Shown: positions 9,095 through 62,131 of the stretch, one piece after another
How positions within the stretch are numbered: the stretch's first letter is position 1
Layout of the letters: each line of letters starts with the position of its first letter
Assembly: GCA_030690365.1 (NCBI GenBank)
Contig: JAUYGX010000022.1
Coordinates: 1 to 64,000, forward strand
Length of the DNA stretch: 64,000 nucleotides
Origin: Bacteroidales bacterium
GTDB taxonomy: Bacteria > Bacteroidota > Bacteroidia > Bacteroidales > F082
Reading direction: 5' to 3'
Made by a program: the position numbers and the translations under genes
The notes under the pieces: model-generated
The model's input: only the letters and a program-made list of their open reading frames with translations
Databases searched by the model: none
What the model was told of the DNA's origin: nothing

Positions 9095-9122
9095 TTTGGT
9101 GGGTGTGTTTTTCGTTACTTTG
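9095..9122 (+). promoter_or_regulatory. Candidate promoter for the small lipoprotein
   Basis: TTTG at 9095-9098, 16 bases, then TTACTTTG at 9115-9122, close to the Bacteroidota TTTG/TAnnTTTG pattern. It lies 32 bases before the ATG at 9154. Spacing is slightly short and the first half of the -7 box is imperfect. Confidence 0.35.
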
Positions 9123-9153
9123 GGTCTGTAAAAAGGGATTAATTAATTTAGGT

Positions 9154-9609
9154 ATGAAAAGGTGGCTGTTGATTCTTTCAGGTTTTTTTCTTCTGTTGGG
9201 ATGTGTTCCCAATTCGGAAGATACTTTTGTTCAGATGAAAAATCTTGAAGGGAACTGGTCCTCGGCCGGTAACGTGCTTATTAATCTGCAATGGAAATCC
9301 ATTGGCGATTCTGCCTTAAAAGGGCGTTTGTACACCTTATTGGTTGCCGACACTTCCTGCGTTGAACAATATGTTATTTTTAAACGCAATGATTCCGTAT
9401 TCGCACAATTGGGGAACTGTGAAGGATATTTACACCCTCAATTGCTTTTGTTAAATAAAAGCAGAGGGAATTTGTTTCGGTTTGAAAACATGAACCGCCC
9501 CTATCCCAACCGGATTGTTTTTGAATGGAAAAGCGATTCTTTGTTTGTATTTCGTAAAGAAAACAGCCGCGGTAATAAACCCATTGAATTTTTGATGAAG
9601 AGGAATTAG
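9154..9609 (+). CDS. Small lipoprotein of unknown function
   Basis: A 151-residue protein beginning MKRWLLILSGFFLLLGC, a lipoprotein signal with lipobox LLGC, so it is probably anchored in the cell envelope. The rest (GNWSSAGNVLINLQWKSIGD; MNRPYPNRIVFEWKSDSLFV) looks like a small beta-rich, lipocalin-like or DUF-type fold; that is inference only. The ATG at 9154 is preferred over an open GTG at 9103 because it places the signal peptide at the N-terminus. The gene is divergent from thiL and is followed directly by the non-coding repeat island. Confidence 0.65.
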   Translation: MKRWLLILSGFFLLLGCVPNSEDTFVQMKNLEGNWSSAGNVLINLQWKSIGDSALKGRLYTLLVADTSCVEQYVIFKRNDSVFAQLGNCEGYLHPQLLLLNKSRGNLFRFENMNRPYPNRIVFEWKSDSLFVFRKENSRGNKPIEFLMKRN

Positions 9610-9868
9610 CCCGACCCGACGGGTTTTTTCCAATCCGGTGGGTGGAAAGTGTTTCACAACGCAGATAGTTGTTAGCTTTTCTCTAAAATATGGCCCACAA
9701 AAGGGAGCGCACTTGGTGTCAATACAGAAACTGGTAATTTATGGAATAGGCTAATGCAGGATGAATACCCCACTTCCTTTCTCCTCCCCAAAGGGGAGGA
9801 GTGATAAAACATTGTATATGAAGTTTATAAGTGTGTTTTAATATGGTTTAATGGTTCAAGTTAGAATA
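9610..9868. repeat. Dispersed intergenic repeat, copy A (left part)
   Basis: Non-coding. It shares an ordered series of motifs with 51737-52034: a hairpin with CGGGTTTTTT in its loop (9618-9640), a stretch with CAATACA..AAAACT/GAAACT, TACCCCAC, a CCTCCCCAAAGG hairpin, then a strongly conserved segment (GGAGTGATAAAACATTGTAT through TTTAATGGTTCAA). In this copy CTCCTCCCC (9781-9789) and GGGGAGGAG (9793-9801) form a perfect 9-bp stem with an AAA loop. The copy is interrupted at 9868 by the miniature element described next. Confidence 0.65.
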
Positions 9869-10228
9869 TATGGGGTATCCGATCATCTCCCGTTATAAGA
9901 TTTAAAGATGCGAATAAAAGGTACGGAGTGTAGCTAATATTTATAGAACGACAAGAACACACTTTTTAAGGTGCAGCGCACCGTCATATTTTCCCGTTTA
10001 TTTAATTATAAATCAATATTGCGGTGCTCCGCACCTTGAATCTACTGTTATTAAATTGGCTATAAATATTTTCGGTGCGCTGCACCTCAAAATACATCAT
10101 CAAAACCAATACACAATATACTTGTATGCAGCGCCACTCATTGATTAATGAGTCCGGTCCAGAAAGGTGAATCATGAAAATAACCGAAAATCAGCACGGG
10201 AGATGATCGGATACCCCATTTTAGAATA
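9861..10228. mobile_element. MITE-like element with 24-bp TIRs and 8-bp target duplication
   Basis: The element proper is 9869-10220 (352 bp). Perfect 24-bp terminal inverted repeats lie at 9870-9893 (ATGGGGTATCCGATCATCTC...) and 10196-10219. The 8-bp direct repeat TTAGAATA flanks it at 9861-9868 and 10221-10228. There is no transposase gene inside, so it must be moved in trans. Eight-base duplications occur in several IS families (for example ISL3, IS66, IS1595, IS256), and the family cannot be named from this copy. The related repeat at 51.9-52.03 kb continues across the insertion point uninterrupted, supporting a clean insertion. Internal hairpins are listed separately. Confidence 0.85.
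9969..10087. repeat. Three phased GGTGC/GCACC hairpins inside the MITE
   Basis: Three 13-base hairpins with identical arms and different loops: GGTGC-AGC-GCACC at 9970-9982, GGTGC-TCC-GCACC at 10023-10035 and GGTGC-GCT-GCACC at 10074-10086, starting 53 and 51 bases apart. The first and third are exact inverted copies over 15 bases. An 11-base inverted pair, AATATTTATAG (9936-9946) and CTATAAATATT (10060-10070), accompanies them. A further perfect 7-bp stem ACTCATT/AATGAGT lies at 10136-10153. They resemble REP-type hairpins. Confidence 0.7.
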
Positions 10229-10244
10229 AATGATCAACTTGTTC

Positions 10245-10808
10245 CTAAAGAAGCGACTCAATAATTTCAGGGAAGTACCTATATTCAAGGTGATGGATTT
10301 TTTCGGCCAGCGATTCGGGTGTATCATCTGGTGAGATGAGCGTATCGGCCTGAAAAAGAATGTCTCCCTGGTCGTATTTTTCGTTTACAAAATGGATGGT
10401 GATTCCTGATTTTTCTTCTTTTGCTGCCATCACGGCCTCATGTACATGGTGTCCGTACATTCCTTTTCCACCATAGGCAGGTAATAAGGCGGGATGAATG
10501 TTGATAATCCTGTCACGGAAAGCCCGAATGATTTCGACAGGGATCAACCAAAGAAACCCGGCCAGCACGATGAGGTCAGGATGTTCATCTTTTAGCCAGT
10601 CAAGTACCTGGTGGCGGGTATAAAAATCGTCACGGGAAGCGATTTTTGATTTAACACCAAGCCGCTGGCATCGTTCCAATACGCCTGCTTTTGGATTGTT
10701 GGTTATCACCAAAGTAACTTCGGCCAGTCCGTTTTCACGGAAAAAAGTGATGATTCGTTCGGCATTGGATCCATTTCCTGAGGCCAGGATGACTATTTTT
10801 TTCTTCAT
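10245..10808 (-). CDS. purN: Phosphoribosylglycinamide formyltransferase
   Basis: GAR transformylase transfers a formyl group from 10-formyl-THF to glycinamide ribonucleotide in purine synthesis. The 187-residue length is typical. The phosphate-binding loop ILASGNGSNAERII is at residues 7-20, followed by the active-site region with INIHPALLPAYGGKG and HHVHEAV. The catalytic aspartate lies in KYDQGDILFQ. The gene is single on the minus strand and divergent from acpP. Its 3' end abuts the right target duplication of the MITE (stop 17 bases away), so the element landed just outside an essential-type gene. Confidence 0.94.
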   Translation of the reverse strand: MKKKIVILASGNGSNAERIITFFRENGLAEVTLVITNNPKAGVLERCQRLGVKSKIASRDDFYTRHQVLDWLKDEHPDLIVLAGFLWLIPVEIIRAFRDRIINIHPALLPAYGGKGMYGHHVHEAVMAAKEEKSGITIHFVNEKYDQGDILFQADTLISPDDTPESLAEKIHHLEYRYFPEIIESLL

Positions 10809-51736: not shown

Positions 51737-52034
51737 CCGCCGGGTTTTTTTCAACCCGGCGGGTCGGATATCCTAAGTTTCGCCATGTTTTTGCCTTATC
51801 CCTTTTTTGTCATCGGCAGTAAAAAGACCCCTGTAAAAGTGGGCGCAGATAGTGTGATGACAATACAAAAACTCGCTACTCTGTACTATTGGCCAATGTG
51901 TATTTATACCCCACCTCCCTCCCGATAGTTATACGGGACCTCCCCAAAGGTGAGGAGTGATAAAACATTGTATATTAAGTTTATAAGTAAATTTTATTAA
52001 GGTTTAATGGTTCAAATTAGATTAAATTATCACC
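51737..52034. repeat. Dispersed intergenic repeat, copy B (uninterrupted)
   Basis: Non-coding counterpart of 9610-9868. It begins with a 10-bp stem hairpin CCGCCGGGTT (51737-51746)/AACCCGGCGG (51753-51762). It then shares CAATACAAAAACT, ATACCCCAC, ACCTCCCCAAAGGTGAGGAG and the segment TGATAAAACATTGTATAT to GGTTTAATGGTTCAAATTAG. At 52011-52034 it reads TTCAAATTAGATTAAATTAT followed by CACC, matching 20 of 24 bases of the reconstructed site into which the MITE at 9.87 kb inserted. A pyrimidine/purine hairpin block (ACCTTTCCC...GGGAAAGGGGT) follows to 52081. Confidence 0.7.
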
Positions 52035-52218
52035 TTTCCCTTTTGGGGAATCCCGAACGCTTTCGGGAGGGGAAAGGGGTGTTGATTTAAAAAATGAGAT
52101 GTTTTCATTTGAACATTCCTAAAAATTAAATCTAAACTGTCAAATTACTATAGTATTAATAACTAAATTTTTACAAAAAGTTGTCATTGGTATATCAGCC
52201 TCAAGCTGATGAGACATC

Positions 52219-61471: not shown

Positions 61472-62041
61472 CTACCCCCTACGACCTTTCCCCCGCGGTC
61501 CCTTCCAGTTACGTGGGTTATCCTGGATGTATCGCTTTATCCGTTGAAACTCTCCATCATCTCTGATCACATGGTCGTAATAGTCGCGTTGCCATGTTTT
61601 GGTTCCGGGTGTATTGAAGAGGATGTTGATGTGCTTTGAAGTTTGCATTTTCAACTTTCCTATGACTTTGAAAAGCAGCATTTTTCTGCGAAGTTTAATG
61701 TATTCCTGAAGGTCTGTTTTTTGAGACAGTACATACAATTCATGAATTGTATGTACGTTATCAAAGTCATACGCTCCCAGCGTGATAATACAATGAAAGT
61801 GGTCTGGCATCACGATCCATTCATCGAGGATGACGCGTGTATGATAGGTTGGTATTTCTTTAATAAATTCAGATACAATCTTGCCTGCATCAGATAATAT
61901 CATTCTGGCATTTTCAATTTTACCCAAAATCTGTAATCTATCCTGGGTATTAACTGTAATAAAATACGAGCCTGGTGAGGAATAATCCCAAAACTGCATC
62001 CGGTTCGATTCAATGCGGTATTTGTTAAGGTACAGGGTCAT
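61472..62041 (-). mobile_element. REP-associated tyrosine transposase (RAYT) gene
   Basis: The 189-residue single-strand transposase is related to the Y1 transposases of IS200/IS605. The HUH motif is HFH at 81-83 (VMPDHFHCIITL), and the catalytic tyrosine lies in WQRDYYDHVIRD (Tyr154 or Tyr155). The C-terminus, RIKRYIQDNPRNWKG, is typical of RAYTs. These proteins mobilise short hairpin repeats in trans. The coding sequence contains a 28-bp perfect palindrome (61729-61756, residues about 96-105). A 54-bp palindrome lies 36 bases upstream of the start. The gene is convergent with, and abuts, the acyl-CoA dehydrogenase gene. Confidence 0.85.
61729..61756. repeat. 28-bp perfect palindrome within the RAYT gene
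   Basis: GTACATACAATTCA followed by its exact reverse complement, centred at 61742/61743. The central ATTCATGAAT is identical to the centre of the 54-bp palindrome at 62078-62131. It encodes the HTIHELYV region of the transposase. Confidence 0.85.
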
Positions 62042-62077: not shown

Positions 62078-62131
62078 AGTATAACTGATAGTATAACCGA
62101 TTCATGAATCGGTTATACTATCAGTTATACT
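62078..62131. repeat. 54-bp perfect palindrome between RAYT and DUF2179 genes
   Basis: The left arm (62078-62104, AGTATAACTGATAGTATAAC...) and right arm (62105-62131) are exact reverse complements with no loop. The centre is GATTCATGAATC. Each arm also contains a tandem-like AGTATAA repeat. It starts 36 bases beyond the RAYT start codon and reaches the first base of the -7 box of the next gene. It is a candidate REP-type target of the RAYT or an operator. Confidence 0.9.

Follow-up and report, generated by a model that had tools for sequence, protein, structure and literature searches.

A 352-bp MITE with IS1595-type ends and REP-like palindrome doublets in its interior in a Bacteroidales genome

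The IS1595 family of insertion sequences (IS), also called ISXO2-like, is related to the eukaryotic Merlin elements. PATEs, on the other side of the comparison made here, are palindrome elements derived from IS200/IS605, gene-less Y1 derivatives with terminal hairpins, for which we know of neither terminal inverted repeats (TIRs) nor a target-site duplication (TSD). The interior of the element described below, with its two palindrome doublets P and Q, looks like a PATE but lies within IS1595 ends. According to PMC8101967, IS1595-family elements have an 8-bp TSD and a transposase with a Zn-ribbon and a DDE_Tnp_IS1595 domain encoded as a single gene. The MITEs studied here share the 8-bp TSD and their parent has the single-gene Zn-ribbon and DDE_Tnp_IS1595 transposase, whereas the element itself has no transposase and its interior is unrelated.

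As in the account of REPINs and RAYTs by Bertels and Rainey (2011, PMC3116915), inverted palindrome doublets are dispersed in the genome and found beside a single high-identity Y1-type gene. Here, however, they lie inside a DDE-type MITE, and the Y1 protein concerned, encoded on contig C99, is below the RAYT cut-off. RAYT-associated REPs usually number more than 100, according to PMC2817692, as against tens of sites per genome here. BrickBuilt from Porphyromonas gingivalis is likewise a Bacteroidota MITE with an interior repeat array that varies in length between orthologous copies, but its repeat is a 23-nt minisatellite, its TSDs are of 4 nt and, in the sections of PMC4596501 at hand, no second transposase is tied to the array. 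IS1595-family IS, MITEs and REPINs are all already known, as is, from BrickBuilt (PMC4596501), a repeat array within a Bacteroidota MITE. In the literature searched, which was open-licence and mostly titles and the starts of abstracts, we saw neither a name for this MITE family nor any description of an IS1595-type MITE with REP doublets in it.

What is new is the interior, where REP-like doublets similar to the surroundings of a Y1 gene are found inside an IS1595-type MITE. These doublets, missing from the original prediction, are the most interesting part of the element; one mobile element may be spreading parts of a second, unrelated jumping system. In four related genomes a single DDE-type MITE family contains palindromes of two unrelated families, and each of these is associated with a Y1 gene of its own. 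The system lets one ask whether REPs outlive and outspread their own transposase by riding on another element. Bertels and Rainey (PMC3116915) proposed that more complex repeats could be built from REPINs, and this MITE family looks like a concrete case.

The element and its insertion site

The window, the whole 64,000-nucleotide stretch of contig JAUYGX010000022.1 that was analysed, reads TTAGAATA-T-ATGGGGTATCCGATCATCTCCCGT ... ACGGGAGATGATCGGATACCCCAT-T-TTAGAATA at the site of the element, with a single T outside each 24-mer. From the two identical copies of TTAGAATA, read directly at 9861-9868 and 10221-10228, the element occupies 9869-10220 of the forward strand and is 352 bp long. The left terminal repeat ATGGGGTATCCGATCATCTCCCGT (9870-9893, forward strand) is complementary at 24 of 24 positions to the right one (10196-10219, reverse strand), so that the perfect 24-bp TIRs, the length and the exact 8-bp direct repeat on both sides are all as originally predicted. 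Searching the window for inverted repeats that are perfect over at least 20 bp and lie no more than 600 bp apart gave 13 seeds, five from the TIR pair and eight from a 54-base palindrome at 62078-62131; none came from 20 mononucleotide shuffles of the window.

The element lies between two convergent frames, one at 9103-9609 on the forward strand (168 aa, no Pfam match) and one at 10245-10808 on the reverse strand encoding a formyltransferase-domain protein (PF00551), and contains no ORF of 100 aa or more. Its predicted single-stranded DNA fold has an energy of -65.8 kcal/mol, compared with a mean of -31.8 in 100 shuffles (z -8.1). A role as a regulatory RNA was rejected, since Rfam gave a single match at E<=0.1, to a miRNA family, with 22.9 bits where the cut-off is 90. 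Promoter function (one promoter-like match with 2.9 expected) and terminator function (two terminator-like matches with 0.8 expected, both of them hairpins of the element) were rejected as well.

The target was a dispersed repeat, of which an uninterrupted copy at 51939-52036 (forward strand) provides the empty-site comparator. When joined at the duplication, the flanks of the element align to this copy over 98 bases at 88.8% identity, ungapped over the junction. The empty-site comparison made in the original prediction thus holds, within the limits that only 12 bases match to the right of the junction before the right flank of the window diverges from the dispersed repeat, and that TTAGAATA is exact in neither comparator, being TTAGATTA at 52 kb and a more diverged stretch in the congener G169.

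The gene region to the right of the element is present in all four congeners (G169, G170, G171 and G172) at 71-94% identity, and none of the four has the element at the orthologous place, so among the five genomes the insertion is confined to its own. In G169 the dispersed repeat is uninterrupted at this site, although diverged and without an exact TTAGAATA; G172 and G171 have neither repeat nor element there, and neither was seen in G170, where the left flank is not alignable. Related strains with identical flanks but no element and no single TTAGAATA had been named in advance as evidence against an insertion. The G169 site is free of the element and lacks TTAGAATA, but it does not correspond to that case as worded because the flanks of the congeners are similar rather than identical. 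The dispersed repeat itself (window 9780-9868 and 51900-52070) resembles a third palindrome doublet, with CTCCCCAAAGGGGAG on one side and CCTTTCCCTTTTGGGGAAAGG (in G169) on the other, and the spot entered by the MITE is the AT-rich spacer of this doublet-like repeat.

Copies and the IS1595-family parent

A BLAST search of its own genome with the element gave 43 matches, many of them TIRs or hairpins alone. Two are further full-length copies, at C51:3326-3683 (86%) and C12:44463-44821 (85%), and long partial copies reach 90% identity. The 21-base core of the TIR is found at 17 sites in this genome with up to three mismatches (none with the reversed control), and TIR pairs bound three full-length elements. 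Of 173 genomes of the family, five have TIR sites with up to two mismatches, namely the genome itself, three of the four congeners (G169, G171 and G172) and G144. Terminal repeats occurring only once, which would have spoken against a MITE, are therefore not what is seen, there being 17 sites in its own genome and more in the congeners. No match to the element was obtained in either the plasmid or the phage collection searched, and plasmids and phages were dropped as its carriers. Full-length relatives of the window copy, which we call class B, are also present in congeners. The closest among the 11 full-length class-B copies compared is one elsewhere in G169 (95%). The other two in its own genome are just 85-86% like it, and the family may therefore now be inactive.

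The TSDs were scored as the best 8-mer beside both ends, allowing offsets of 1-4, for 37 TIR pairs from 54 loci. The set includes four complete IS copies, leaves out pairs without 30 bases of flank (L177, whose flank is cut, is unscored) and counts orthologous insertions once per species (for example L067/L073, L068/L074, L059/L075, L062/L072 and L060/L078). The duplication is exact in 21 of the 37 pairs and matches at 7 or more of 8 positions in 27, whereas among 1326 cross-paired flanks of different copies 0.3% are identical, 5.2% match at 7 of 8 and 5.5% at 7 or more. With the offset fixed at 3, 11 of 37 pairs are identical as against 0.38% of cross-paired flanks. Ten pairs, among them the copy on C51 and every complete IS scored but L100, fall below 7 of 8. 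All 21 exact pairs are MITEs; none of the complete IS copies is exact, their best scores out of 8 being 7 (L100), 6 (L172), 5 (L120) and 5 (L184). Multiple copies with different 8-bp duplications, which the original prediction had suggested looking for, are thus present, in keeping with a non-autonomous MITE with TIRs and an 8-bp TSD.

A TIR search of the order matched 9 of 393 genomes. In three of these (G214, G282 and G526) there is a lone TIR site without a partner, which may be due to chance, while G289 has a 972-bp TIR pair with a transposase gene inside that both Pfam and NCBIfam assign to IS1595. An exact TIR scan of a collection of bacterial and archaeal genomes gave 24 stretches. Full-length IS with the same ends, also sought at the suggestion of the earlier note, were found, all in other genomes. 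L184 (CAIXAQ010000111.1; 976 bp, GGGG to CCCC) and L177 (JAUWBB010000007.1; 973 bp) both have exact 21-base TIR cores at both ends and a 306-aa protein, and the left TIR of the window element is the same as their left ends. L172 (973 bp, 305-aa protein) has 0 and 2 TIR mismatches and L100 (972 bp, a complete pair) has 1 and 3. L120, a more distant fifth element with 4 and 5 mismatches, likewise encodes an IS1595-family protein. In the proteins of all five, which are of 304-320 aa, PF12762 and PF12760 are above cut-off; that of L100 scores 202.9 bits against NF033547 (IS1595). As for the catalytic triad, a comparison of five proteins shows D135, E136 and D201 to be invariant.

Similarity to these IS is also seen beyond the terminal repeat. 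At the right end of the window copy, a remnant of the parent at 10174-10219 (forward strand) matches positions 933-980 of L184 in blastn (89.6% over 48 columns, E 2e-13), so that the homology extends about 22-24 bp inward past the TIR; in an L184-like parent this region is the end of the transposase gene together with the TIR. No IS homology beyond the TIR was detected by blastn at the left end of class B. A sister MITE of 200 bp in G169 is, judged by its sequence, a plain internal deletion of an IS1595-family parent, its sequence passing from IS positions 980-845 directly to 73-2 (90% and 89%) and still including a fragment of the transposase C-terminus (56% over 43 residues, with one stop). 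In the MITE L058, of the class A discussed below, about 71 bp remain from the left end of the IS and 49 bp from its right end.

The original prediction implied a trans-acting enzyme of unknown family. The family can now be given, the parent being of the IS1595 family, whose transposase would presumably act in trans. The draft assemblies of the genome itself and of the four congeners yielded no complete IS with these ends. The only long IS1595 match in its own genome, C136 (protein 50% identical over the aligned residues, 46% to L184), was rejected as the mobiliser as its 36-nt ends are of other sequence. The 1391-bp TIR pair in G169 was rejected as an autonomous IS, having inside it no transposase frame but a tandem class A array and an apparently decayed class B element. 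The single TIR at G144:C43 was discounted as an IS end, with no long transposase-like frame listed beside it and no IS1595 match on the contig.

In L172, at 270-746 and 747-1664, a truncated gene for another IS1595-type transposase is followed directly by the complete IS, so that an IS has apparently inserted into a related one. Other Bacteroidota genomes contain MITEs with like ends that are 119-203 bp long and free of both hairpin types (L095, L097, L101, L104, L105, L110, L173, L182 and L183).

Palindrome doublets and Y1 genes

The interior of the window copy contains three perfect GGTGCNNNGCACC hairpins and a degenerate fourth, arranged as two doublets, P and Q, inverted with respect to one another. 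In P the degenerate hairpin GGTACGGAGTGTA (9920-9932, forward strand) is followed by GGTGCAGCGCACC (9970-9982); of the 10 other class-B copies in the alignment, 8 read GGTACGGAGTACC at the degenerate hairpin. Q consists of GGTGCTCCGCACC (10023-10035), identified by the hairpin search and by comparison of the doublets, and GGTGCGCTGCACC (10074-10086). The hairpin starts are 50 bp apart in P and 51 bp in Q; in other doublets, to which most hairpins belong, they are 49-52 bp apart. There are 45 perfect GGTGCNNNGCACC hairpin sites in the genome (control 0), and the class B hairpin pattern is found at 32 sites in G169 (control 1), 35 in G171 (control 0) and at least 20 in G172 (control 1), with two in G170 (control 0), both of which have unusual loops. 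On a hand-made list, 16 of the 45 hairpins are in MITE copies having a TIR site with up to three mismatches, 19 if C17 with its partial TIR is added and 23 if C128 and C150, in which the TIR was not seen, are also counted as MITE-derived.

A similar set of doublets surrounds a Y1 gene on contig C99 (L028), where eight hairpins in four doublets lie around a gene for a 160-aa Y1_Tnp protein. The doublets nearest to the gene are P and Q, one to either side, while in the MITE P is followed by Q with 40 bp between, which looks like the result of a deletion of the gene. The Q module is 86% identical to its C99 counterpart over 81 bp (E 1e-22), and the P module 76% over 91 bp (E 2e-11) and 73% over 74 bp. 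Other Y1 genes of this genome are 35-46% identical to the C99 gene, which is therefore present once at high identity. At the orthologous locus in G171 (86.7% over 3.2 kb) the Y1 gene is broken and seven of the eight hairpins are recognisable. Despite its 32 hairpin sites, G169 offers at best a 39% identical Y1 match to the C99 protein. Against NCBIfam the C99 protein scores 63.8 for IS200/IS605 (cut-off 55) and 23.4 for REP_Tyr_transpos (cut-off 80), and it is thus RAYT-like in setting only, the term RAYT denoting a resemblance.

Several class-B copies are incomplete. The one-ended copies L004, L005 and L006 (on C9, C13 and C14 of the genome of the window) stop near a common point (CCAAT to CCAATACAT), and L007 and L159 end where doublet Q ends, as if smaller units ended there. 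A class-B copy in L061 (G169:C33:81700-82900) has 181 bp inserted close to the left end; the insert, with inverted ends of 16 bases (GAGTCCACTCCGAAAA), is possibly a further MITE.

Class A shares its ends with class B but has a different doublet, of the GCAGTCTGGCTTTAGCCGACTGC type, which matches the surroundings of a second Y1 gene (best pieces E 1e-30 to 1e-23). G172 has an intact copy of this gene (145 aa, PF01797 at 72.5 bits), and that of G169 is broken. In the genome of the window, class A is represented by one-ended copies only. At one orthologous site, with flanks 95% identical, the element measures 1391 bp in G169 but 818 bp in G172; its array of 193-195-bp doublet units runs to 5.3 copies in the former and 2.3 in the latter, a difference of three units from which it follows that the length of the cargo changes in place. 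An A-type core is found within 300 bp of 6 of the 11 B-derived copies, while the whole 64-kb window has two such cores. Ten MITEs of 119-203 bp that have these ends but are otherwise different were checked, and all lacked hairpins of either type, so the ends can spread without this cargo.

Origin of the element and its interior

The element is very probably a deletion-derivative MITE of the IS1595 family with its interior occupied by Y1-type palindrome doublets, which are spread by its transposition. An IS1595-type DDE transposase would recognise the 24-bp ends and move the element in trans, as we infer from the parent, and insertion would duplicate eight AT-rich target bases. The transposase gene would have been lost in the lineage, with doublets like those around Y1 (IS200-like or RAYT-like) genes then taking up the interior, perhaps through Y1 activity rather than recombination or shared ancestry. 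Transposition of the MITE would also spread REPIN-like units as passengers from Y1-type elements. REPs would in this way ride on the MITE, and their spread might have some effect on the host. As the class B and class A doublets match the surroundings of two different Y1 genes, REPIN-like units appear to have been captured twice by IS1595-type MITEs. A broader view, to which we give slightly less than even weight, is that REPIN-like repeats are repeatedly captured by such MITEs, dispersed by a second, double-strand chemistry and able to persist without a matching Y1 gene, as G169, with its many hairpins and distant Y1 match, would suggest.

It could be argued that the element is itself a Y1/RAYT-type unit, REPIN or PATE-like, which moves as single-stranded DNA and has the 24-bp ends merely as incidental flanks. 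Hairpin doublets are indeed also found without TIRs at several places and around a Y1 gene, and the truncation of three copies near the shared CCAAT point and of two near the end of Q is what a smaller unit might give. To our knowledge, however, IS200/IS605-type transposition makes no target duplication, whereas 21 of the 37 pairs have 8-bp duplications at the TIRs, and the ten other MITEs checked have these ends without either hairpin, which makes this reading very unlikely. Still more improbable is that a DDE transposase of another family moves the MITE, the ends being alike by convergence. No matching IS was found in the host genome or its congeners, but IS1595-family proteins are encoded by all four complete elements that share these ends and by L120, and the internal homology to L184 past the TIR strongly disfavours convergence.

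The origin of the palindromes leaves more room for an alternative, in which they are not Y1-derived but form a common hairpin array that was acquired independently, or in which Y1 genes inserted into arrays already spread by the MITE. The C99 doublets, lying in two sets on both sides, do look like an array interrupted by a gene, and the A and B repeats cluster, as noted above. Against this, the two palindromes differ and each matches the sequence around a separate Y1 gene, and some doublets lack MITE ends. We consider this alternative rather unlikely and favour the capture of Y1-type doublets by an IS1595-type MITE.

Palindromes are also seen near other Y1 genes. At 61472-62041 on the reverse strand of the window there is a Y1 transposase frame above the Pfam cut-off, which scores 72.1 bits for REP_Tyr_transpos against the cut-off of 80, and the perfect 54-base palindrome (62078-62131) is just upstream of its start. 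Elsewhere in this genome the Y1 loci L026, L029 and L031 each have a different type of palindrome near by.
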